Source: Devosia sp. LC5 (GTDB lineage: Bacteria; Pseudomonadota; Alphaproteobacteria; Rhizobiales; Devosiaceae). From it: 64,000 bases of DNA. Shown one piece after another: positions 24,968 to 63,929 of this stretch. The notes below the pieces were generated by a model. The model had not been told where the DNA came from. It saw nothing but the letters and a program-made list of their open reading frames with translations, and did no database searches. The position numbers and the translations under genes were made by a program. The stretch is from the NCBI RefSeq assembly GCF_000735585.1, contig NZ_JNNO01000044.1:124001-188000 (forward strand), read 5' to 3'. Each line of letters opens with the position of its first letter. Position 1 is the first letter of the stretch.

Positions 24968-24993
24968 AACGTGCGGGCCGGTGAAGCGGTTCC
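24968..24993 (-). promoter_or_regulatory. EcfG promoter of the DUF1328 gene
   Basis: On the minus strand GGAAC (24993-24989), 17-base spacer, CGTT (24971-24968), an exact match to the EcfG consensus GGAAC-N16/17-CGTT. It places the start of transcription about 20 bases before the DUF1328 ATG. Confidence 0.82.
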
Positions 24994-25900: not shown

Positions 25901-25925
25901 AACGGGCCGTGAATGCAAAAGTTCC
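25901..25925 (-). promoter_or_regulatory. EcfG promoter of phyR
   Basis: Minus strand GGAAC (25925-25921), N16, CGTT (25904-25901): exact consensus. Its -35 element is the left arm of GTTCC-N8-GGAAC, whose right arm is the -35 of the divergent nepR promoter. Confidence 0.88.
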
Positions 25926-31840: not shown

Positions 31841-31865
31841 AACGCCATAACGTGTGGTAGGTTCC
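31841..31865 (-). promoter_or_regulatory. EcfG promoter of the YqjD-YqjE-like pair
   Basis: Minus strand GGAAC (31865-31861), N16, CGTT (31844-31841): exact consensus. Transcription should start about 20 bases before the DUF883 ATG. Confidence 0.85.
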
Positions 31866-32429: not shown

Positions 32430-32455
32430 AACGGCGAGGAAGGGACTTTAGTTCC
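32430..32455 (-). promoter_or_regulatory. EcfG promoter of the small membrane protein pair
   Basis: Minus strand GGAAC (32455-32451), N17, CGTT (32433-32430): exact consensus. It lies 32 bases downstream of the end of the transglutaminase operon. Confidence 0.84.
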
Positions 32456-32486: not shown

Positions 32487-33365
32487 CTATTCGACGCGTA
32501 TCACGTCGACCGATTGGGTCGTCTCATGCGAGCCATGGGTCTTGAGTACGCCCACGATCGGGGAGATGTCGGCATAGTCCCGGCCATGGCCGATCGAGAT
32601 GTGGTCGCCGCCCGCAATCATGGCATTGGTGGGGTCGAACTCGACCCAACCCATATGTTGGCCGCACCAGACACGCACCCAGGCATGCATGGCGTCGCTG
32701 CCTTCTAGTCGTGCCTTGCCGGGTGGCGGATTGGTGCGCAGGAAACCCGAGACATAGCCGGCGGGAATGCCGGCGCCGCGCAGACCGGCGATCATCACAT
32801 GGGCAAAATCCTGGCACACGCCCTTGCGCAGCGCAAAGGCTTCAGCGGGCGTGGTCTGCACGTCAGTCGCCTTGGAATCGTAGATGAAGTCGCGATGGAT
32901 CGCCATGCAGAGGTCATTGGCGGACGCCAATACTGAAGGGGCGCCGGCCATGGCGGCCCTGGCATAGGCGGTAATGGCGGGGACGAGCTGCACACTGCCG
33001 GATTCGGCGAGGAAATGATGCGGGCTATCGGGTTCGACCGACCAGAACCGGCTGATCTCCTGCCGCAAATGCTCGAGGGTCGGCGATAGATCGGCGGGAG
33101 GATGAATGTCCTCCACCTGAACGCGCGCGGTCAGGCGGATATCGAGATGATCGTGCGGCGTCAGATAGGTGATGGTGGTCACCGCATTGCCGAAAAAATC
33201 GGTGAAGGCGCTTTCGCGCTGCGGGCGCGGCTCGAAGGAGAGGCTTGCCGCGATGACGCGTTGGGTGCCGGGCACGCTGATCGGCGCAACACGGATGAGG
33301 TGGCGGCCGCCATGCACGGGTGCGTCGTAATCGTAATGCAGATCGAGGCGGACATCGTAGAGCAT
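32487..33365 (-). CDS. Transglutaminase-like cysteine protease family protein
   Basis: A 292-residue protein with an N-terminal beta domain (about 1-100, MLYDVRLDLHYDYDAPV) and a transglutaminase-like core carrying Cys184 (RKGVCQDFAHV), His227 (DAMHAWVRVW) and Asp244 (VEFDPTN). No signal peptide, so probably cytoplasmic. Last gene of a three-gene operon with 4-base spacing. Relatives are predicted peptidases or amide-bond hydrolases acting with ATP-grasp ligases; the substrate is unknown. Confidence 0.92.
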   Translation of the reverse strand: MLYDVRLDLHYDYDAPVHGGRHLIRVAPISVPGTQRVIAASLSFEPRPQRESAFTDFFGNAVTTITYLTPHDHLDIRLTARVQVEDIHPPADLSPTLEHLRQEISRFWSVEPDSPHHFLAESGSVQLVPAITAYARAAMAGAPSVLASANDLCMAIHRDFIYDSKATDVQTTPAEAFALRKGVCQDFAHVMIAGLRGAGIPAGYVSGFLRTNPPPGKARLEGSDAMHAWVRVWCGQHMGWVEFDPTNAMIAGGDHISIGHGRDYADISPIVGVLKTHGSHETTQSVDVIRVE

Positions 33366-33369
33366 GGCG

Positions 33370-35781
33370 CTACACGAAATAGGCTGCGGCCACGAGGCTG
33401 GAGAGAACGCCGAGATCGGCGGCCAGCTTGTCGAGGCGATCAGGGGTCATGTCCGCGGGTTCGGCGATGCGCAATTCGGTGTGCAATTGCAGGGCAGCCT
33501 TAGCGGCGGGCGAGAGCTGACCATCGCCAATGCCGCCGGGCAGCATTTCGATCTGCTTTTGCAGTTCGGCCAATTGGAACAGCACCGAGCGTGGATTGAG
33601 CGGGTCCAGCGTAAGCAGATCGACGGCACTTTGCGTACCCGCGCTCACTGAATAGCGGCGACGGTGCGACATGACGCTGTCGCCGATTTCCAGCAGCATT
33701 TCGAGCGAGCCATCCGGCGCATCCTTATGGGTGAACCAGGCAGTGGCGCGAGCGATCTGCATGGCACGCTCAAGCCGTCGGCCCAGTTCGAGAAAGCGCC
33801 AGCCGGCAAAGCGGTACATGTTTTCGTGCACGAGGCCGGAAAAGCCTGCCAGCTTGCGCAGCAGCACGGTCATGGCGCGCGTGGCATCGTCGCCGAGCTG
33901 GACGCGGGTGGCAAAGCGCTGGGCGGTCTTTTGCAGATCAACCAGAGCCAGCCAGCCGTCCGGCGAGAAGCGGTCGCGGATCTGGCCGGCGCTGTGCACG
34001 GCGCTATCGATGGAGGAGAGCAAGCCCAGCGGCATGGCATCAGCGGCATCGACATCGATGGTTTCGAGGAATGCCGCACAGTGGGTCAGGATCGGCAGGT
34101 CGGTCTTGGAGAGTTCGGCCTGGCGGGCATTATAGGCGCGCAGGATGCGCACCGTAGCCTCGCAGCGCTCGGCATAGCGCCCCAGCCAGATCAGATTGTC
34201 GGCGGCGCGGCTGGGCAGACTACCGGGCGAGTTCCGCACCAGTTTCTGGCCATCGCGCGGCAGCAGCGAGACCTGTTCCACCGGCTTGGATGACACGACC
34301 CAGACGTCGGCTGCCTGGCCGCCGCGCTGCATGGCGATGGCCGAGGCATCGTTGGTGGAGCCGACCCGGGCAAAGCCGCCGGGCATGATGGTCCAGCCAT
34401 CGTCGGTCCGAGCCGCGTAGACGCGCAGGGTAATGGCGCGGGGTTCGAGCTTGCCATCGACATAGACCGGGGCGGTGGAGAGCTGCACCTGTTCCTGGCC
34501 GACATAGCCGGCGCCATTGGTGCGGATACGCTCAAGCAGCGCCTCGCGCTGGTCGGCAGGCACGGCGGAGCCGAGCATGGTGCCGCGCTGGTCATCGAAG
34601 GGAAGCGTCGTGGCGAAGGCGGGGCCGATCATCAGCTTGTCGAAATTGTCGAGCACATGGCGCTGCTCGCCTGGCTGACCGCACCACCAGGTGGCAATTT
34701 CGGGCAGCAGCAGATTGGTGCCGAGCAGCTTTTGCGCCAGTCGCGGCATGAAGGCGGCCAGCGCGCGGGTTTCGAGCAGGCCGGTGCCCAGCGCATTGAT
34801 CATGGAGATCGAGCCGTGGCGCAATGCCTCGACCATGCCGGGCGTGCCGATGCGGCTATCGTAGCGCAGCTCAAGCGGGTCGACGAAGGAGGCGTCCATG
34901 CGCCGCCACAGCACGGTCACCGGCTTGAGTCCGGCCACCGTGCGCACCATGACGCGCTCGTCCTCGACCACCAGATCCTCGCCTTCAAGCAACATGAGGC
35001 CGAGATAGCGGGCAATATAGGCGTGTTCGAAATAGGTTTCGTTGAGCTGGCCCGGCGTCAAAATGCCGACCCGACCGCCATCGCGCTTGGCCTGCGCGAA
35101 AAGCGTATCGCGGAAGGCGCGGAAGAAGCCGGCCAGCCGCTGGATATTCATGCCGGCATAGATATCGGACAGCGCGCGCGTAGTAGCGACGCGGTTTTCC
35201 AGCGCAAAGCCGGCGCCCGAAGGGGCCTGGGTGCGGTCGCCCAGCACCCACCAGGCGCCGTTGGGGCCGCGACCCAGCTCGAAGGCGCAGAAATGCAGGT
35301 AATGTCCGCTGGCCGGTTTGACGCCGACGAGGGGGCGCAGGAATTCGCCATTGCGCGCCACAAGTTCGGGCGGCAGCAGGCCTTGTTGCACCAGGGTATT
35401 GTCGCCATAGATATCGGCGATGACGGTTTCGAGCAGTTCGGCGCGCTGGACCAGGCCGGCGCTGATGGTGGCCCATTCGGCTTCATCGATCAGCAGCGGA
35501 ATTTTGGCGAGCGGCCAGTCGCGTTCCTTGCCCTCAGCGCCGTCATATTTGCGGTAGAACACACCGGCATCGCGCAGATATTGATCGGCGCGCTCGAAAC
35601 GCGCGGCAAGCTCGGTGGGGCCTAGCCTGTCGAAGGCAGCCATCAAGGCGGCCCAGCCCGGCCGGATGTTGCCGGCCGGGTCGACCATTTCGTCGGGTAC
35701 GCCCGGTTGCAGCCGGTAATCAGCAACAATGCTGGGCCCGGCAGGGGGCTTGCCGCGAGGCTTTTGATTCCGCGTATTCAT
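33370..35781 (-). CDS. Circularly permuted ATP-grasp / alpha-E fusion protein
   Basis: An 803-residue protein combining two families often encoded separately. Residues about 1-480 are the circularly permuted ATP-grasp (COG2308 type, with the segment from YGDNTLVQQGLLPPELV through GVLTPGQLNETYFEHAYIA-like sequence and MINALGTGLLE). Residues about 490-803 are the helical alpha-E domain (COG2307 type, beginning LPSRAADNLIWLGRYAERCE). Predicted amide-bond ligase. It lies between the two transglutaminase genes with 4- and 5-base gaps. Confidence 0.92.
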   Translation of the reverse strand: MNTRNQKPRGKPPAGPSIVADYRLQPGVPDEMVDPAGNIRPGWAALMAAFDRLGPTELAARFERADQYLRDAGVFYRKYDGAEGKERDWPLAKIPLLIDEAEWATISAGLVQRAELLETVIADIYGDNTLVQQGLLPPELVARNGEFLRPLVGVKPASGHYLHFCAFELGRGPNGAWWVLGDRTQAPSGAGFALENRVATTRALSDIYAGMNIQRLAGFFRAFRDTLFAQAKRDGGRVGILTPGQLNETYFEHAYIARYLGLMLLEGEDLVVEDERVMVRTVAGLKPVTVLWRRMDASFVDPLELRYDSRIGTPGMVEALRHGSISMINALGTGLLETRALAAFMPRLAQKLLGTNLLLPEIATWWCGQPGEQRHVLDNFDKLMIGPAFATTLPFDDQRGTMLGSAVPADQREALLERIRTNGAGYVGQEQVQLSTAPVYVDGKLEPRAITLRVYAARTDDGWTIMPGGFARVGSTNDASAIAMQRGGQAADVWVVSSKPVEQVSLLPRDGQKLVRNSPGSLPSRAADNLIWLGRYAERCEATVRILRAYNARQAELSKTDLPILTHCAAFLETIDVDAADAMPLGLLSSIDSAVHSAGQIRDRFSPDGWLALVDLQKTAQRFATRVQLGDDATRAMTVLLRKLAGFSGLVHENMYRFAGWRFLELGRRLERAMQIARATAWFTHKDAPDGSLEMLLEIGDSVMSHRRRYSVSAGTQSAVDLLTLDPLNPRSVLFQLAELQKQIEMLPGGIGDGQLSPAAKAALQLHTELRIAEPADMTPDRLDKLAADLGVLSSLVAAAYFV

Positions 35782-35786
35782 GGGTT

Positions 35787-38700
35787 CTACCAGAAGCGCG
35801 GCGGCCGGCGCAGGTCAAGCGTTAGCGGGAACTCGTCCGCAGGCTTTTCTGCGCGCAGATCATAGCCACCCGGGGTGTAATTGTGCGGCACGAAGCGAGC
35901 AAGGCGCCGCGCCTCGGCCTCGTTGCCGTTGACCGGGAAGGTTTCGTAATTGCGACCGCCGGGATGGGCTACGTGATAGGTGCAGCCGCCGACGGGCCGA
36001 CCGGTCCAGGTGTCGTAGATGTCGAACACCAGTGGGGTATTGACCGGCATGGCCGGATGCATGCCCGAGGCGGGTTGCCAGGCCTTGTAGCGGACGCCAG
36101 CAATGGCCGAGCCTGCCGTATCGGCCTTGTGCAGGGGAATGGGCCGCCGGTTGCAGGTGACGGCGTAGCGCTCGGGATTGAGGCCATCGAGCTTGACCTG
36201 TAGCCGTTCAACCGAGCTATCGACGAAGCGCACCGTGCCGCCGATGGCGCCCTGTTCGCCCATGACATGCCAGGGCTCGAGCGCCTGGCGCAGTTCGAGA
36301 CGGACGCCGTCATATTCGACCTCGCCGCAGAAGGGGAAACGGAATTCGAGCTGGGCGGCGAACCAGGCCGGATCGAGCTTGAAGCCGTGGGCGTCGAGGT
36401 CGGCGAGGACATCGAGAAAGTCCTGCCAGACATAGTGGGGCAGCATGAAACGATCATGCAGGGTGGTGCCCCAGCGGGTGAAACTGCCCTCCAGCGGATC
36501 GGTCCAGAACCGGGCGATGAGGGCGCGGATCAGCACTTGCTGGGCCAGCGACATGCGCGCATTGGGCGGCATTTCAAAGCCGCGGAATTCGACCAGGCCC
36601 AGCCGGCCGGTGGGGCCGTCGGGCGAATAGAGCTTGTCGATGCAGATTTCCGAGCGATGGGTATTGCCGGTGACGTCGACCAGAAGATTGCGGAACAGCC
36701 GATCGACCAGCCAGGGCAAAGGCGGCAAGGCGCCCGAGGCGGGGTGAGGCACCTGCGCCATGGCGATTTCGAGTTCGTAGAGGCTGTCGTGCCGGGCTTC
36801 GTCGAAGCGAGGGGCCTGGCTTGTCGGTCCGATGAACAGGCCCGAAAACAGATAGCTCATCGCCGGATGGCGCTGCCAATGCAGCACCAGTGACTTGAGC
36901 AGATCGGGCCGCCGCAGGAAGGGGCTGTCATCGGGTGTGGCGCCGCCCACGACCACGTGATTGCCGCCGCCGGTGCCGGTGTGGCGGCCATCGATCATGA
37001 ATTTGTCGGCACCCAGCCGCGACAGGCGGGCTTCTTCATAGATCGCGGTGGTCGTGGCGACGCAATCGTCCCAGTTCGAAGCGGGGTGAATATTGACCTC
37101 GATGACGCCCGGATCGGGCGCCACGCGGATGACATTGAGGCGCGGATCGTGCGGCGGGGAATAGCCTTCGACATGCACGGGGAAGCCGATGGCCTTGGCG
37201 GCGGCTTCGACGGCGGCGATCAGTTCGAGATAGTCCTCGAGTTTTTCGACCGGCGGCAGGAAGACGCAGAGCCTATGGTCGCGGATTTCGGCGGTGACAG
37301 CAGTGCGCACCTCGCCCTCGATCTCGCTGATTTCCTGCTCGATGCGGTCCTGCTGCTCGGTGGCGGCGGTAAATTCTGCAGCAACCTGGGCGCGGGGGTC
37401 GGCGGCAAGGCCAGCAGTTTTGCGCGACAGGATTTCCACCGGATCGGGCAGGGGGCCGCGCGGTGCACCGGGGTCCTGCGCCACCACATGGGGGTATTCG
37501 GTGGGCTTGATGTGCTTGAGCGAAGTCAGCGGCAGGCGATAGCCGGCGGGGCTGTCGCCGGGGGCGAGGAAGAGTTTGCCGCGCCGTGTCTTCCACTTTT
37601 CGGTGAGCCAGGGGCTCGACGCGGCCGCGTTCCAGCGCTGTACGGGCAGTACATAGCCGGTGGGGTTAGTCAGGCCTCGCTCGAACACTTTGGCGATGCG
37701 CGAGCGGGCTTCGGGGTCGGCCAGTTCGGAATTGGCCGGGTCGACATTGGCGGGCAGATTGGCTTCCTTGAGCAGCCATTCGCCGGGGTCTTCATAGGCC
37801 TCGTCAATGGTTTCCCCGGTCAGCCCGAGATTGTTCGCAAAGGCAGCGAGGAATTTGCGGGCGTCGGCATGGGTCGCGGCGGTTTTGACGCCTTCGCGCG
37901 CCACCAGCGCCTCATCTTGCCAGACGGGTTTGCCATCGACGCGCCAATAGAGGGAAAAGGTCCAGCGCGGCAGGGTTTCGCCGGGATACCATTTACCTTG
38001 GCCATAATGCAGCAGGCCAGCTGGCGCGAAGCGCTGGCGTAGCCGGCGGATCAAATCGTCGGCAAGGGCGCGCTTGGTGGGGCCAACGGCGCCGGTATTC
38101 CACTCGTCGGCCTCGAAATCATCGATGGAAACGAAAGTGGGCTCGCCGCCCATGGTGAGGCGCACGTCGTTTTCGGCGAGGACTTTATCGACCTGCTTGC
38201 CCAGGGCATTGAGCTGGTCCCATGCGGCGTCGGAAAAGGGCTTGGTGATACGCGGATGTTCGGCGACGCGGGTCACCTTCATATCGAAGGCGAAATCGAC
38301 TTCAGCGTAGCTGGCAAAGCCCGAGATCGGCGCGGCATTTCGATAATGCGGGGTGGCGGCCAGCGGTACATGGCTTTCGCCGGTCAGTAGGCCCGAAGTG
38401 GGGTCGAGGCCGACCCATCCGGCGCCGGGCAGATAGACTTCGCACCAGGCATGCAGGTCAGTAAAATCATGGTCGGTGCCGGCGGGGCCATCGAGCGAGA
38501 CCAGATCGGGCTTGAGCTGGATCAGGTAGCCCGACACGAAGCGGGCGGCAAAGCCCAGATGCCTGAGGGTCTGGACCAGCAGCCAGCTGGAATCCCGGCA
38601 CGAGCCTTTGGCGTTGCCCAGGGTTTCCTCGGGCGTCCACACGCCGGTTTCCATGCGCACGATATAGGCGATGTGCTGCTGGATGGAGGCATTGATGGCG

Positions 38701-39137
38701 GTGACGAAATTGACCGTATTCATCGGCGTCTTGTCGATGCCATCGATGAAACGCTGCAGCAGCGGGCCGGCTGGCTCGGGCCGCATATAGATGGACAGGT
38801 CCTCGCGAATATCTTCGGGATATTGGAAGGGGAAAGTTTCCGCTGTTTCCTCGACGAAGAAATCGAAGGGATTATAGACCGTCATGTCGGCGACGAGATC
38901 GACTTCGATCTTGAGCTCGGTGACCGGCTCGGGGAAGACGAAGCGGGTTAGGAAATTGCCATAGGCATCCTGCTGCACATTGACGAAATGCAGCGACGGA
39001 GACACCCGCAGGGAGTGGCTCAGCACCTTGGTTCTGGAATGCGGCGCCGGTTGCAGCCTGATGATCTGGGGCTGGAGGAAGACCGGACGGTCATATTTGT
39101 AGTGAGTCAGATGGTAGACGGCGGCTTTGATCGACAT
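35787..39137 (-). CDS. Transglutaminase-DUF2126 fusion (predicted peptide ligase)
   Basis: A 1116-residue protein. Residues 1-280 form a beta domain plus transglutaminase core with Cys180 ([12 protein letters not shown]), His229 (DLHAWCEVY) and Asp245 (LDPTSG). Residues about 300-1116 are DUF2126 (COG4196), with [28 protein letters not shown] and [10 protein letters not shown], a family placed by comparative genomics among glutamine-synthetase-like COOH-NH2 ligases (recollection). So one chain may both form and cut amide bonds. First gene of the operon; no signal peptide. The promoter (39138-39253) shows no clear consensus. Confidence 0.92.
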
Positions 39138-39253: not shown

Positions 39254-40840
39254 CTACCCCATCGCGTCGATCAGCTGCCGTTGCCGCAGCATTTCGAGAA
39301 AAATCCGATAGTCCCGGTCGAACTGGATGCGGGCAGCCGGGTCTGGCGAACGCGCCGCACCCGGTTGGTGCATCGCCACACAAGCCGCATCGAGGCTCGG
39401 ATAAAGCCCCGCGGCAGTCGCTGCGACCATGGCCATGCCGAGCAGCGTTGCGTCCTGCGCCGAGGATTGCACCACCGTGCAGCCGGTGGCGTCGGCATAG
39501 AGTTCCATCAGCAGCGGGTTCCTGGTGTGCCCGCCGGTAATGTGCAGCGTGTCGATGGCATAGCCGCGCGTGTTGAGCGTTTCGAGGATGTGGCGGACGC
39601 CCAAGGCAATGGCGACGCAGCTGCGCCAATAGAGCCGGCAGAGGCTATCGAAATCGCTGTCGAGGGTCAGGCCGGAGATGACGCCCAGCGCAAAGGGATC
39701 GCCCAAAGGGGAACGATTGCCATGGAAATCGGGCAGAACATGCAAGCGTTTGGCGAGGCCCAGGCCTTCGCTGGCGCGTAGCGCAATGATGCGCTCAGCA
39801 ATGGCGCGGTGGCGTTCCGGGGTTGGGTCGCCGCCCGCGCCATGCCAGCGGATGAGGTGATCGAGCAAGGCGCCGGTGGCCGATTGGCCGCCTTCATTGA
39901 GCCAGACACCGGGGAGCACGGCACCATAATAGGGGCCCCAGACGCCGGAGGTCGCGCGGTCTTCGGCAGAGAGCGCCATGACGCAGCTGGAGGTTCCAGC
40001 GATCAGGGCCAGGTGGCGATCGATCGTGCCGATATCGCTGGCGAAGGCGCCGAGCAGGCCCAGCGCACCGGCATGGGCGTCGATCAGGCCGGCGCCGACA
40101 TGGCAATTGGCGGTGAGGCCCAGATCGGCGGCGGCCGCTGCGGTCAGCGTGCCCAGATCGGTGCCGATGGGGCTGGCCGTCTGCGGCAGGGCGGCGCGGT
40201 CGAGCAGGTCTTCGAGACCCACCAGCTCAAGAAAATCCTGCCGCCAGGATGGGTTGGTATGACCTAGGTAAGTCCATTTGCAGGTGAGGGTGGATTGGCT
40301 GCGGGCGAGCGAGCCGGTGGCTTTCCACGAAAGAAAATCGGCCAGGTCGAACATCATGCCGGCACTGGCCCAGGTCTGCGGCATGTGCCGCTTGAGCCAC
40401 ATCAGCTTGGGCACTTCCATTTCCGGCGACATGACGCCGCCGGCAAAATTGAGCACGAGATGGCCGGTTTCGGTGCATTCCCCGGCTTCGGCCAGCGCCC
40501 GGTGATCGAGCCAGACAATGGTGTCCCAACGCGCTTCGCCATTGGTGGAGACGGTGAGCGGGGCGCCGTTAGCATCGCGGACGACGAGGGAGCAGGTGGC
40601 ATCGAAGGCCAGGCCCACCACGGCGTCGGGGCTGGCTCCGGCGGCAGCCATGGCGTTGCGCACGGCTGCGCAGACGGCGCGCCAGATGTCCTCGCTGTCA
40701 TGCTCGGCATGGTTGGCATCGGTGCGATTCATGGCGATGGGATGCTCGGCGCGGCCCAGCAGCAGGCCTTCGGGCGTCAGCACGCCCGCCCGGGCGCTCC
40801 CCGTGCCCACATCCACTGCCACCAGGAGGCTTTGCAACAA
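39254..40840 (-). CDS. FGGY-family pentulose (D-ribulokinase-like) kinase
   Basis: Carbohydrate kinase of about 528 residues. It starts with VAVDVGTGSARAGVL, contains FDATCSLVV and KWTYLGH typical of FGGY ribulose-type kinases, and has the C-terminal ITGGHTRNPLL nucleotide loop. No ATG is available: tandem TTG codons at 40840 and 40837 directly follow the HAD stop codon. It probably phosphorylates the ketose made by the polyol dehydrogenase of the same operon; it differs from XylB-type kinases (which have DCGTQS). Confidence 0.87.
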   Translation of the reverse strand: MLQSLLVAVDVGTGSARAGVLTPEGLLLGRAEHPIAMNRTDANHAEHDSEDIWRAVCAAVRNAMAAAGASPDAVVGLAFDATCSLVVRDANGAPLTVSTNGEARWDTIVWLDHRALAEAGECTETGHLVLNFAGGVMSPEMEVPKLMWLKRHMPQTWASAGMMFDLADFLSWKATGSLARSQSTLTCKWTYLGHTNPSWRQDFLELVGLEDLLDRAALPQTASPIGTDLGTLTAAAAADLGLTANCHVGAGLIDAHAGALGLLGAFASDIGTIDRHLALIAGTSSCVMALSAEDRATSGVWGPYYGAVLPGVWLNEGGQSATGALLDHLIRWHGAGGDPTPERHRAIAERIIALRASEGLGLAKRLHVLPDFHGNRSPLGDPFALGVISGLTLDSDFDSLCRLYWRSCVAIALGVRHILETLNTRGYAIDTLHITGGHTRNPLLMELYADATGCTVVQSSAQDATLLGMAMVAATAAGLYPSLDAACVAMHQPGAARSPDPAARIQFDRDYRIFLEMLRQRQLIDAMG

Positions 40841-40841
40841 A

Positions 40842-41525
40842 CTAGAGCGCCTTCTTCTCGGTTCGGAGCGATCGTACAAGATCGGGCAAGGCATGCATAT
40901 CGTCAAAAATCCGGTCGGGGTGGAGCGCGGCGATGGTGTCGGCGAGCCCGGCGGGGGCGGTATGGCCGCCGCCGAGATAGCCGAATACCGCCATGCCGGC
41001 GGCGCGGGCGGCGGTGATGCCGGCGGGGCTGTCTTCGATGACAAGGCAATTGGTGGGTGGAATGCCCATGGCGTGGGCGGCGTGAAGGAAGAGATCGGGG
41101 GCGGGTTTGCCGTTTTTGACCATGGTGGCGGAGAAGATATTGGGTTCGAAGGCGGCCAGCATGCCGGTCAGTTCGAGGCTGATGCGGATGCGTTCGGGTT
41201 GGCTGGAGGAGGCGACGCAGAATGGAATGTCAAGATTTTCCAGGATGTTAGGGAGGCCTGGACTGGCCCGCAACTCGCGGCGGTAGAGCGCGTACAGATC
41301 GCTGCGCATGGAGGCGAGTGCCGCCGGACCGAGTGGCATGCCGTGGCTATCGAGCAGGCTGGCGGAGATCGAGGCGAGGGAGCGGCCGAGGTAATCGCGA
41401 TAGGCCATGGCGGGGGTGATTGCGGGGCCCTGGGCGCCGATGGCGGCGATCAGGATCTGCATGGCGAGGGGTTCGCTATCGACGAGGACGCCGTCGCAAT
41501 CGAAGATGATGAGCTCGAGGGTCAA
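40842..41525 (-). CDS. HAD-family phosphatase/phosphoglucomutase-like
   Basis: A 227-residue HAD subfamily I protein. The nucleophile motif is FDCDGVLVDSEP (8-19), with a helical cap, a Ser in VASSSQPERI, Lys in KNGKPAPDLF and acidic motif IEDSPAGITAA. It starts with TTG, the codon directly after the TAG of the upstream dehydrogenase, so translation probably depends on coupling. It is likely a sugar-phosphate phosphatase in polyol catabolism. Confidence 0.88.
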   Translation of the reverse strand: MTLELIIFDCDGVLVDSEPLAMQILIAAIGAQGPAITPAMAYRDYLGRSLASISASLLDSHGMPLGPAALASMRSDLYALYRRELRASPGLPNILENLDIPFCVASSSQPERIRISLELTGMLAAFEPNIFSATMVKNGKPAPDLFLHAAHAMGIPPTNCLVIEDSPAGITAARAAGMAVFGYLGGGHTAPAGLADTIAALHPDRIFDDMHALPDLVRSLRTEKKAL

Positions 41526-42998
41526 CTAGATCTGGCCTTCGATGTAGCGCTCAAGCGTGGCTTTGGTGCCGATATTCCACAGCGTTTCCAAGGCTTTGGT
41601 AAAGGCGGCAATGAAACGTTGATGGGTGGCGAGTTCGCCGTAGATGTCGGTCATTTCCAGCCAGGCCTGGGGATTGATCTTGGCTTTTTGGGCTTGGGCG
41701 GTCAGGCGATCCCAGCTTGGATCATTGGGTTCGATGACGGCGCCGCTCTCGGAAATGCCGTAGCAATAGCGACACCAAAGTGCTGACACGAGCGCCAATC
41801 CGTTAACGGACTGTTGACGTTGAGAACGCTCCAGGGCCGATGGAATGATGAATTTGGGCTGCCGGTTGGAGCCATCGAGCGCGAGGCGGCGAATAGTGTC
41901 GCCAATCTTGGGATTGGCGAAGCGGCGCTGGCAGAGGGCGAAGTAATCGTCGAGATTGGTATCGGGGACCGGGGGGACGATGGGGATGATCTCATCGCGC
42001 TCGACCTTGGCGAGGAAGGCGGCGACCAGGGGGTGCTCCATGGCTTCATGGACGAAGTGGATATCGAGCAGGCCGGCCGGATAGGCGATGGTGGCGTGGC
42101 CGCCGTTGAGGATGCGGATTTTCATGTGCTCGTAGGGGGCGACGTCCTTGACGAATTGAACGCCGACCTTTTCCAGCGCCGGGCGGCCGGCGGGGAAATT
42201 GTCTTCGAGCACCCATTGCTTGAAGCTCTCGCAGAAGACGGGCCAATTGTCCTCGATGCCGAAATTGTCGGCCAGGAGGGTTTTTTCGCGATCGGAGGTG
42301 GCGGGGGTGATGCGGTCCACCATGCCATTGGGGAAGGCGACATTGGCTTTGACCCATTGGGCGAGGGCCGGGTCGATCAGCGCGGCAAGGCCGGCGACGG
42401 CGTTTTCGGTGACGTGGCCATTGCCGGGGATGTTATCGCAACTCATGACGGTGAAGGGGAGGATGCCGAGGTCACGGCGGCGGATAAGACCGGCGAGGAT
42501 GAGGCCGAAGGCGGTTTTGGGGGAGGTGATATTGGCGGCGTCGTACGCGATGTCGTGATGGGTCGGATCGAACTTCTGGCTGGCCGGATCGATGTAATAG
42601 CCACCTTCGGTGATGGTGAGCGAGACGATGCGGATGGCGTGGTCGGTCAGGCGCTCGATTACCGCGTCGCTGTCGCCGGGGCGGAGATAGTCGATCATGG
42701 GACCAGTGATGCGGGCGGCGCTGGTGTCGGCTTCCTGTTCGACCACGGTGGTCAGCCAGTCCTGGGACTTGAGCTTTTGCCGCATGGCCTCATCGGCCTC
42801 GCGGACGCCGGCGCCGATGAGGGCCCAATCATGGTCGGAGCCGGTGGCAAAGAGATCGTCGAGATAGACGGCCTGGTGAGCGCGATGGAAATTGCCGACG
42901 CCGAAATGGACGATGCCGGCGGTGAGGGCGTCGCGGTTGTAAGTGGGTGTCGCGGCAGTGGTGATGGAGGAGAGGGTGGCGGCGGAGAGTTTGGTCAT
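41526..42998 (-). CDS. mtlK: Mannitol dehydrogenase family protein (polyol 2-dehydrogenase)
   Basis: A 490-residue long-chain polyol dehydrogenase, oxidising mannitol, arabinitol or sorbitol to the ketose with NAD. The N-terminal nucleotide-binding part has IVHFGVGNFHRAHQAVYLDD (about 29-48), the middle PFTVMSCDNIPGNG, and the active-site Lys/Asn/His segment KIRILNGGHATIAYPAGLLD. ATG at 42998. The Smo-type ABC transporter is upstream on the same strand. The exact polyol cannot be told. Confidence 0.9.
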   Translation of the reverse strand: MTKLSAATLSSITTAATPTYNRDALTAGIVHFGVGNFHRAHQAVYLDDLFATGSDHDWALIGAGVREADEAMRQKLKSQDWLTTVVEQEADTSAARITGPMIDYLRPGDSDAVIERLTDHAIRIVSLTITEGGYYIDPASQKFDPTHHDIAYDAANITSPKTAFGLILAGLIRRRDLGILPFTVMSCDNIPGNGHVTENAVAGLAALIDPALAQWVKANVAFPNGMVDRITPATSDREKTLLADNFGIEDNWPVFCESFKQWVLEDNFPAGRPALEKVGVQFVKDVAPYEHMKIRILNGGHATIAYPAGLLDIHFVHEAMEHPLVAAFLAKVERDEIIPIVPPVPDTNLDDYFALCQRRFANPKIGDTIRRLALDGSNRQPKFIIPSALERSQRQQSVNGLALVSALWCRYCYGISESGAVIEPNDPSWDRLTAQAQKAKINPQAWLEMTDIYGELATHQRFIAAFTKALETLWNIGTKATLERYIEGQI

Positions 42999-43013
42999 GG
43001 GTTAGGTCCCGGA

Positions 43014-43177
43014 GTCATTCCCGCGAAAGCGGGAACCTCCGTTGAAAGGAAACAGGGGTTCCCGCTTTCGCGGGAATGACCCGGTGGGCGATATCCCGTT
43101 TTCTCCGTCATTGCCCGGCTTGTCCGGGCAATCCAGTTTGTGGAGGCGTGGATCACCGGGACAAGCCCGGTGATGAC
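43014..43177. repeat. Two palindromic repeats between ABC ATPase and dehydrogenase genes
   Basis: Element 1: perfect 23-bp inverted repeat, arms 43014-43036 and 43058-43080, each with an internal hairpin (CCCGC/GCGGG). Element 2 (43107-43177): GTCAT...ATGAC ends with two internal hairpins (GCCCGG/CCGGGC; ACCGGG/CCCGGT). Both contain no gene and no T-run. Confidence 0.8.
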
Positions 43178-43203
43178 GAAGGAGGGGAGGGCGCGGAGCA
43201 TAG

Positions 43204-44208
43204 TTAGATCGCCTTGCCCGCTGCATCGAATTTATAGATGCGGGTCTGGTCGGGCGTCAGATAGACTTCGTCGCCATGGGCAAAGGTCTGGTCGCCGTCG
43301 GTGCGGATGGTCATCAGGCCTAGGCCTCCGACATGGACGTGGAGGAACGTGTCTGATCCCAGCTGTTCGGCGACCCCGACCTTGCCTTTCCAGGTGCCGG
43401 GAACATTGTCGCGGCTGAGCTTGAAGTGTTCGGGGCGCACGCCGATGGAATGGGCGTTGTGCTTGGCCGCTTCGGGGCCATCGACGAAGTTCATCTTCGG
43501 GCTGCCGATGAAGCCGGCGACGAAGCGGTTGGCGGGCTTCTTGTAGAGGTCGAGCGGGGAGCCGAATTGCTCCACGTTCCCCGCGTTGAGCACGACGATG
43601 CGGTCGGCCATGGTCATGGCTTCCACCTGATCGTGGGTGACGTAGATCATCGTGGTCTTGAGCTGCTGGTGCAGTTCGGTGATTTCCAGCCGCATGTTGA
43701 CGCGTAGCGCCGCGTCGAGATTGGACAGGGGCTCGTCGAACAGGAAGGCCTTGGGTTCGCGCACGATGGCGCGGCCGATGGCAACACGCTGCCGCTGGCC
43801 GCCGGACAGGGCGCGGGGGCGGCGGTCGAGATAAGAGGATAGGTTCAGCGTGCGGGCGGCATATTCGACCTTCTGATCGATCACTTCCTTTGATGCCTTG
43901 GCCATCTTGAGCGGGAAGGCAATGTTGTCGCGCACCGTCATATGCGGATAGAGCGCGTAGGACTGGAACACCATGGCGAGGCCCCGCCGCGCGGGGGGAG
44001 CCTTTGTCATGTCCTGCCCGTCGAGCAGGATGGTGCCGGACGTGGTGTCTTCAAGCCCGGCGATCAGGCGGAGGAGGGTGGATTTGCCACAGCCGGATGG
44101 GCCAACGAAAACGACGAATTCCCCATCATTGATGTCGAGGGAGATGTCCGGGATGACCTGGACGTCGCCGAAGGACTTGTTGACGTGGGAGAGGGAGATG
44201 GAACCCAT
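43204..44208 (-). CDS. smoK: Polyol ABC transporter ATP-binding protein (SmoK/UgpC type)
   Basis: ATPase of 334 residues of the CUT1 (MalK/UgpC) class with a regulatory C-terminal TOBE domain (about 235-334). Walker A GPSGCGKS (36-43), Q-loop [12 protein letters not shown], signature [15 protein letters not shown], Walker [13 protein letters not shown] and [10 protein letters not shown] are intact. The regulator, binding protein and permeases precede it on the same strand and mtlK follows, which identifies a sorbitol/mannitol (Smo) transport set; the symbol is by context. Confidence 0.9.
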
Positions 44209-44219
44209 TTTCTAAGTCC

Positions 44220-45050
44220 TTATTTCACTGCGCCGAAGGTGAGGCCGCGGACGAGTTGTTTCTGGCTGAACCAGCCCATGAGCAGGATTGGTGCGATGGC
44301 GAGCAGGGAGGCGGCGGAGAGCTTGGCGAGGAACAGGCCTTGCGGCGAGGAGAATGAGGAGATGAAGGCGGTGAGCGTGCCGGCGCGGCCCGAGGTCAGG
44401 GTGATGGTCCAGAAGGCTTCGTTCCAGGCGAGGATCACATTGAGCAGGAGCGTCGAGGCGATGCCGGGCACGGCCATGGGGACGAGGACGTGGACGATTT
44501 CATTCCAGAGTTCGGCACCGTCCATGCGGGCGGCTTCCAGGATATCGACCGGGATTTCCTTGAAGTAGGTGTAGAGCATCCAGATGATGATCGGCAGGTT
44601 GATCAGCGTCATGATCAGGGTCAGGCCATGCACGGTGTCGAGCAGGCGCAGATCGCGGAAGATCAGGTAGATCGGGATGAGAACGCCCACGGCGGGCATC
44701 ATCTTGGTGGAGAGCATCCACATCAAGACGTCCTTGGTGCGCTTGGTGGGCGCGAAGGCCATGGCCCAGGCGGCTGGGATGCCGATGGCGAGGCCCAATA
44801 GGGTGGAGCCGACCGAGACCAGGATCGAATTGATGGCGTGCTTGATATAGTCGGAGCGATCCTGCACGGCGCCGAAATTTTCCAGCGTGAAGGTTTCCGG
44901 GAAGAAGGTGGGCCGGGACGCGATGGCTTCGGCCTCGGTTTTGAATGCGGTGAGGATCGTCCACAGGATGGGCGAGAACAGCAGGAGGGCGACAATCCAG
45001 GCGAGGGCGGTAAAGCCGATGCGGGTCCGGGTGGAGACGGTGCGGGCCAT
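44220..45050 (-). CDS. smoG: Polyol ABC transporter permease (SmoG/MalG type)
   Basis: A 276-residue CUT1 permease with six helices and the EAA motif EAARMDGAELWNEIVHVLVP (about 172-191). It ends with WFSQKQLVRGLTFGAVK, a typical MalG-family C-terminus. 11 bases before the ATPase gene. Confidence 0.92.
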   Translation of the reverse strand: MARTVSTRTRIGFTALAWIVALLLFSPILWTILTAFKTEAEAIASRPTFFPETFTLENFGAVQDRSDYIKHAINSILVSVGSTLLGLAIGIPAAWAMAFAPTKRTKDVLMWMLSTKMMPAVGVLIPIYLIFRDLRLLDTVHGLTLIMTLINLPIIIWMLYTYFKEIPVDILEAARMDGAELWNEIVHVLVPMAVPGIASTLLLNVILAWNEAFWTITLTSGRAGTLTAFISSFSSPQGLFLAKLSAASLLAIAPILLMGWFSQKQLVRGLTFGAVK

Positions 45051-62861: not shown

Positions 62862-63929
62862 TCATATTTGCAGTGCCAGCAGGTCCTTGCTGGCGAGGCT
62901 GATGGTGACCGGCTCGCCTCGGCTGGGTGGGGCCGTACGTTGGTCGTTGAACGTATCGAGGCTCAGGATGTTCCTGCCAAGCGCCACGCGCAGGCGGATG
63001 ACCGAGCCCAGGAAGGTGACGTCGGCGATGGTGCCGGTGAGGGTAATGTCATTGCCATCACGAGCACCGATCGACAGCACTTCGGGCCGTAGTGTTAGCA
63101 GACTGTTAGCACCGACGCGCGCATCGGCGGGCAATTGGGCAACCTGGACGGTCTGGCCGTCAATGGAGACGGTTTTGGCTGCGACATCGAGAATGGTCGC
63201 TTCGATCGTGTTGAGCTGGCCGACGAAAGTAGCGACGAAACGGGTGGCCGGTTTGTTGTAGATTTCGTGCGGCGCGCCGAGCTGTTCGATATGACCTGAG
63301 TTCATCACCACGATGCGATCGGAGATGGAGAGGGCCTCTTCCTGGTCGTGGGTGACGAAGACGGTGGTGATGCCCAGGTCGAGCTGGATGGCGCGGATTT
63401 CTTCACGCAGGGAAACGCGGATTTTGGCGTCGAGGGCGGAGAGGGGTTCGTCGAGCAGCAGCATGCGGGGGCGGGGGGCGATGGCGCGCGCGAGAGCCAC
63501 GCGCTGCTGCTGGCCGCCGCTCATCTCGTAGGGGTAGCGCTTCTCGAAGCCGGGCAGGCCGATGAGCTTGAGCATTTCATCGACACGGGCGCGGCGTTCC
63601 TCCTTAGCCATGCCGGCGATCTTGAGGCCGAAGCCGATATTGTCGCCGACATTGAGGTTGGGGAACAGGGCATAGGCCTGGAACACCATGCCGAGCTGGC
63701 GCTGGTTCGGCTTGAGGTGGGTAATGTCTTCGCCATCGATGCGGATGGTGCCGGTGGTGGGATTTTCGAAGCCGGCGATCATGCGCAGGATGGTGGTCTT
63801 GCCGCAACCGGAGGGGCCGAGCAGGGAGATGAACTCGCCCTTGCCGAAGGCGAAGCTGACGGATTTGACGACGGTGTTGTTGCCGAAGGATTTGGTGAGG
63901 TTTTCGACGGACAGGAAATCTTGGTTCAT
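62862..63929 (-). CDS. ABC transporter ATP-binding protein (PotA/FbpC type)
   Basis: A 355-residue ATPase with C-terminal TOBE domain (about 275-355). Walker A GPSGCGKT (about 38-45), Q-loop FQAYALFPNLNV, signature MSGGQQQRVALARAI, Walker B LLLDEPLSALDA, VTHDQEEAL. ATG 63929 begins one base after the stop of an upstream permease gene. The class serves polyamines, ferric iron, thiamine or phosphonates; the binding protein lies outside the window. Confidence 0.9.
   Translation of the reverse strand: MNQDFLSVENLTKSFGNNTVVKSVSFAFGKGEFISLLGPSGCGKTTILRMIAGFENPTTGTIRIDGEDITHLKPNQRQLGMVFQAYALFPNLNVGDNIGFGLKIAGMAKEERRARVDEMLKLIGLPGFEKRYPYEMSGGQQQRVALARAIAPRPRMLLLDEPLSALDAKIRVSLREEIRAIQLDLGITTVFVTHDQEEALSISDRIVVMNSGHIEQLGAPHEIYNKPATRFVATFVGQLNTIEATILDVAAKTVSIDGQTVQVAQLPADARVGANSLLTLRPEVLSIGARDGNDITLTGTIADVTFLGSVIRLRVALGRNILSLDTFNDQRTAPPSRGEPVTISLASKDLLALQI

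Follow-up and report, generated by a model that had tools for sequence, protein, structure and literature searches.

A three-gene operon and its fused ATP-grasp protein

The stretch of Devosia sp. LC5 DNA considered here (64,000 nucleotides, contig NZ_JNNO01000044.1, positions 124,001 to 188,000; "the window") contains an operon (39137-32487) of three co-directional minus-strand open reading frames (ORFs) that encode a transglutaminase fused to a DUF2126 region, an ATP-grasp domain fused to an Alpha-E domain and a stand-alone transglutaminase-like protein, Table 1. A preliminary description, made from the letters alone, had listed the three genes with gaps of 4-5 bases, and this is borne out by the ORFs, with gaps of 5 and 4 bases. 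The closest named relatives are from Devosia, with 90% identity in the DUF2126 protein.

Conservation of the operon was evaluated using the best 80 of 589 relatives from a search of named genomes. The fused ATP-grasp/alpha-E gene follows that of DUF2126 in 77 of the 80 loci (some cut by contig ends), and the conserved three-gene order far exceeds chance. That the genes are merely adjacent, with no joint function, is scarcely credible: DUF2126 does occur truly without the other two genes in two loci (L016 and L049), but the complete order is present in 73 of the 80, 5 more are interrupted by contig ends, and the intergenic gaps are very short. The same order is also seen in an actinobacterial genome record (Enemella, L081), with 64% identity in DUF2126.

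In the first protein (1116 residues) Pfam Bact_transglu_N and Transglut_core domains (about residues 1-296) precede a large DUF2126 region (about 298-1110), seen as such in the preliminary description and matched here at 1328 bits against a curated cut-off of 27. Pfam labels DUF2126 a putative amidoligase, and in a low-confidence structure model the region has a glutamine-synthetase-like fold, its nearest folds being glutamine synthetases. Across 41 DUF2126 proteins 284 residues are invariant, including E332, E657, E680, N682, N726, H727, E850 and E855. The 292-residue protein carries the same two transglutaminase domains and matches 3isr at 8e-9 (phmmer). Both transglutaminase cores had been credited with a Cys-His-Asp triad, and correctly so: C180/H229/D245 in the DUF2126 protein and C184/H227/D244 in the 292-residue one show conservation of 97% or more among 81 and 74 proteins, respectively (window included), and the former triad is intact in 20/20 further DUF2126 proteins from the class and phylum as well.

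The 803-residue fused protein matches Pfam CP_ATPgrasp_2 (462 bits, about residues 22-497) and Alpha-E (199.6 bits against a cut-off of 20.8, residues 522-802), and the ER motifs of the latter, E538-R539 and E671-R672, are conserved. The ATP-grasp domain is of full length and retains the CP_ATPgrasp fold, with 3n6x nearest, followed by glutathione and glutathionylspermidine synthetases. As a reference we used 15 sites that are invariant across 23 unfused relatives; only 2-4 of these are kept in the fused proteins (75 of 75 compared) and 2-6 in 39 further fused-length Pseudomonadota proteins. E159, N161, K320, K367, G373, G374, D427 and N458 are all replaced in the window protein, positions that presumably include metal ligands (the ExN pair), the ATP loop (Lys and the Gly-rich loop) and further acidic residues. 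The "full ATP-grasp" of the preliminary description is full in length, but the catalytic-type residues are gone in all 75 fused proteins, and it was just this loss on alignment that the description had named as telling against its own interpretation. Judged by these residues it is very unlikely that the domain would be a working ligase; because the fold remains and the fused protein is under purifying selection we regard it as a conserved pseudo-enzyme. Fused-length copies without DUF2126 occur at least in three genomes (G010, G046 and G209), and the G010 copy (L187) has lost the same sites.

It is also conceivable that the fused domain has been re-tooled, with a new pocket for another nucleotide or cofactor or with ATP-independent chemistry. 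Consistent with such a change, the fused family has fixed R183, R339, W177 and W292 (75/75) and P449 (74/75) where unfused proteins differ, fold and purifying selection are retained, and 14 of the 39 further proteins still carry Lys at site 367. However, no new motif with known activity was identified in the fused family, and, with the ExN pair, the Gly-rich loop and D427 lost, analogy makes the usual ATP-grasp chemistry unlikely, so that we consider re-tooling doubtful.

A second cluster and the distribution of Anbu

A genome-wide search for further ATP-grasp/alpha-E copies, proposed in the preliminary description, reveals a second CP-ATP-grasp cluster on another contig (L085), in which unfused ATP-grasp, alpha-E and transglutaminase-like genes lie together, Table 1. 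Its ATP-grasp is intact at the reference sites, and its transglutaminase, dead through loss of the Cys, is under purifying selection (ratio of nonsynonymous to synonymous substitution rates, dN/dS, of 0.15-0.28). The gene that follows is on the opposite strand and reads by eye as a transporter; there is no Anbu in this cluster.

Anbu was sought with a profile built from the genes in L043, L078 and L063, where it lies beside the DUF2126 gene; among solved Anbu structures the L078 protein has matches of 6e-71 to 2e-85. No Anbu gene lies beside the operon, as had been noted previously, and with this profile none is found in the genome (E up to 1e-10 and up to 1e-5). The single proteasome-family match in the genome was rejected as Anbu, reading by eye as HslV.

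Among 289 genomes of the class Anbu is present in 92 (E up to 1e-10), DUF2126 in 44 and CP-ATP-grasp in 124, with DUF2126 and Anbu together in 32, DUF2126 alone in 12, Anbu alone in 60 and neither in 185. CP-ATP-grasp accompanies all 44 DUF2126 and all 92 Anbu genomes, and a copy of unfused length, judged by reading frame, is present in 44/44 of the former (fragmentary in G194 and G221); seven of the 44 have a single CP-ATP-grasp match, always of unfused length. Coexistence of Anbu with DUF2126 in 32/44 genomes is unlike what is seen in the genus, where 25 genomes (our own included) comprise 19 with DUF2126, 3 with Anbu, none with both and 3 with neither (Fisher p 0.009, kinship ignored), the last 3 lacking CP-ATP-grasp also. 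A divergent Anbu-like group is evident as well (L132 and Anbu-profile matches of 100-139 bits); the one gene of it examined, in G041, is not beside CP-ATP-grasp.

These distributions bear on the proposal of the preliminary description that the operon forms a synthesis/removal cycle complete in itself, with the fused ATP-grasp as an active peptide ligase. The conserved gene order and the two intact triads are as this proposal would have it, but the ATP-grasp residues are lost in 75/75 and 39/39 fused proteins, every DUF2126 genome of the class has an unfused-length ATP-grasp, and in this genome the intact-site ATP-grasp and a second alpha-E protein reside in the other cluster. The operon is probably not self-contained, and the proposal as a whole is, in our estimation, highly improbable.

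The state of the second-cluster transglutaminase varies with gene content. In the genus its Cys is absent in 17/17 DUF2126-positive genomes where the gene was found (it was not found in the other 2) and retained in 3/3 Anbu-positive genomes. A wider comparison leaves out the DUF2126-positive members of the genus, with L115 set aside, and draws on the 30 best Anbu matches, chosen stretches and later matches, a non-random sample in which kinship is ignored. Here the Cys is kept in 34/37 DUF2126-negative cases (1 replaced, 2 absent) and in 7/20 DUF2126-positive ones (4 replaced, 9 absent; Fisher 1.1e-5), or in 9/23 (Fisher 1.7e-5) once L043 and L078, which retain the Cys, and L063, in which the gene was not seen, are included. 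Exceptions occur in both directions (L110, L233; L116, L118, L120).

In some genomes the two clusters are physically linked. They adjoin in L043, L063 and L078, and second-type unfused ATP-grasp, alpha-E or transglutaminase genes adjoin DUF2126 in at least 6 of 20 further stretches, a lower bound because the stretches are short; in L182, L202 and L205 Anbu lies next to the fused gene. This linkage favors the two clusters acting together, and it also shows that Anbu and the DUF2126 operon can coexist. In one Anbu-positive relative (G561:C1:1796398-1800176, L293) the match to the unfused ATP-grasp is split, with ∼2.6 kb between its two parts, as though the gene had been interrupted.

We lean towards the explanation that the operon and the second cluster are two halves of one amide-ligase/hydrolase system distributed over two loci, with the operon the DUF2126 half that has replaced Anbu and its transglutaminase. 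Carboxylates would be activated with ATP, and amide or isopeptide bonds formed, by the glutamine-synthetase-like DUF2126 domain and by the second cluster's unfused ATP-grasp. The pseudo-ATP-grasp/alpha-E protein may assist the intact ATP-grasp/alpha-E pair without catalysis of its own, as a scaffold, in substrate binding or in allosteric control. Cleavage or transfer of those amides would fall to the two transglutaminase domains with intact triads, a task that in relatives belongs to Anbu and its own transglutaminase. The substrate would most likely be the carboxylate of a peptide or protein, processed when nitrogen is limiting, going by published expression data for Anbu-type clusters. The families, their co-occurrence and the making and cutting of amides, as set out in the preliminary description, fit the published prediction and the present data; the assignment of the fused ATP-grasp as ligase does not stand.

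More tentatively, and with rather less confidence, DUF2126 and Anbu-type operons may be one machine in which, in the genus, each half carries one dead subunit and the glutamine-synthetase-like/transglutaminase protein can replace the Anbu protease, giving an Anbu-independent form of amide tagging or amide recycling in which the pseudo-ATP-grasp is regulatory.

A different product is a real, if not the favored, possibility: the proteins may make a small metabolite, such as a γ-glutamyl or glutathione-like amide, rather than tag proteins, with the transglutaminase domains acting as amidases of that metabolite. The glutathione and glutathionylspermidine synthetases that follow 3n6x among the nearest folds of the ATP-grasp part, and the glutamine synthetases nearest to the DUF2126 part, would be in keeping with this, as would the lack of a widely shared candidate for a Pup-like tag, no ORF family of 25-110 residues being found within 2.5 kb of the operon in more than 20 of the 80 loci. 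However, the data do not separate a peptide from a protein carboxylate and the metabolite explanation differs from the two-locus one in substrate only; the literature searched reports no substrate of these gene families.

The gene families are widespread, as the CP-ATP-grasp counts in the class attest, and the pseudo-enzyme, the intact ATP-grasp of the second cluster and the exclusion of DUF2126 and Anbu in the genus point to the protein to assay for ATP-dependent ligation, the pairs to combine and the double mutants to make. A vague guess of peptide tagging becomes testable epistasis.

Surroundings and promoter-type motifs

The window has 5 copies of the EcfG-type pattern GGAAC-N16/17-CGTT, where shuffles predict 0.68, and all are on the minus strand, Table 1. 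One copy is 32-57 bases past the 3′ end of the operon and from its position is predicted to serve the next small gene and not the operon; the small gene placed ∼105 bases beyond the 3′ end in the preliminary description does begin there, as an ORF read by eye. No such motif was found just upstream of the operon in the pattern search of the window.

Sigma-54-like sites (score at least 8/10) lie upstream of 5/20 unfused ATP-grasp genes, compared with 6% in simple shuffles, and of only 7/79 DUF2126 genes, compared with 5%. In L117, L125, L133, L134 and L135 such sites precede the unfused ATP-grasp gene by 42-71 bases. Because the best scores in this genome are only 7 and 6 of 10, nitrogen limitation is a lead and not a result here.

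The same-strand genes upstream of the operon (39254-45050) resemble, by eye, those for a sugar kinase, a HAD phosphatase, a mannitol-dehydrogenase-like protein and an ATP-binding cassette transporter, with no link to the operon seen. Three families downstream of the operon in Rhizobium-type loci (e.g. L024, about 17-23 kb) resemble, again by eye, glycogen phosphorylase, branching enzyme and GlgC (families 3, 7 and 9, in 22, 15 and 12 loci, respectively) and probably reflect local synteny.

Table 1. Genes and motifs of the window and genes of the second cluster
Feature	Position	Strand	Basis or state
Transglutaminase + DUF2126 fusion (1116 residues), first operon gene	39137-35787	minus	ORF, Pfam
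Pseudo-ATP-grasp + Alpha-E fusion (803 residues)	35781-33370	minus	ORF, Pfam
Stand-alone transglutaminase-like cysteine enzyme (292 residues)	33365-32487	minus	ORF, Pfam
EcfG-type motif GGAAC-N17-CGTT	32430-32455	minus	pattern search
Other EcfG-type motifs	24968-24993, 25901-25925, 31841-31865, 62950-62974	minus	pattern search
Unfused ATP-grasp (473 residues)	L085, second cluster		all 15 sites intact
Alpha-E protein (315 residues)	L085, second cluster		
Transglutaminase-like protein (267 residues)	L085, second cluster		His and Asp kept, Cys replaced by Ala

Relation to published systems

Amidoligase systems are reportedly the subject of Iyer et al. 2009. Nothing on an inactive, pseudo- or degenerate ATP-grasp or on DUF2126 was found in the literature searched, but because the key 2009 paper lies outside it priority cannot be claimed; neither the conserved pseudo-ATP-grasp nor the reciprocal pattern with Anbu was seen there in print.

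A fusion of transglutaminase and carboxylate-amine ligase (Rv2566 type) was described in 2008 (PMC2588565, in part), and the first gene of the operon is a member of this family, with its transglutaminase N-terminus, DUF2126 region and modelled glutamine-synthetase-like fold. The passage on the Rv2566 type makes no mention of the state of a neighboring fused ATP-grasp or of a dead transglutaminase in a second cluster. The association of Anbu with ATP-grasp, alpha-E and transglutaminase was described in 2008-2009, as cited in passages of PMC5666114 and PMC6376114; the same three partner families recur here, and the second cluster of the genome is such an operon without Anbu, whereas the operon in the window lacks Anbu and carries DUF2126 together with a fused pseudo-ATP-grasp. 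In Y. bercovieri the Anbu operon encodes an ATP-grasp that releases phosphate from ATP, and no peptidase activity was seen with Anbu (PMC6376114, in part); going by its residues, the fused pseudo-ATP-grasp should, in contrast, not release phosphate. The P. putida CP-ATP-grasp gene and one with the annotation bacterial proteasome beta subunit, which we take to be Anbu, are both up on nitrate versus ammonium (log2 3.99 and 4.44, respectively; passages of PMC8050072), and in marine metagenomes these domains track those of urea metabolism (passages of PMC3597751).

The RloABC system of Pseudomonas is similar in combining an ATP-grasp, a protease and a transglutaminase-like protein, one of them catalytically inactive. 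Unlike here, RloA/RimB is retropepsin-like and RloB is a seven-transmembrane inactive transglutaminase, and the passages of PMC12239564 name neither DUF2126 nor alpha-E for RloABC and RimK/RimB. Pupylation (PafA/Dop/Pup) is related in that PafA belongs to the same carboxylate-amine ligase superfamily (PMC2588565, in part) and differs in that the operon has no widely conserved Pup-like small ORF nearby (80 loci). The preliminary description had ranked the operon as an undescribed system, a view that the fusion and the Anbu association, both in print since 2008-2009, do not allow. The class of system was predicted then, and what we find is a genus-level variant in which Anbu is not found, its transglutaminase is dead and the DUF2126 half is present.
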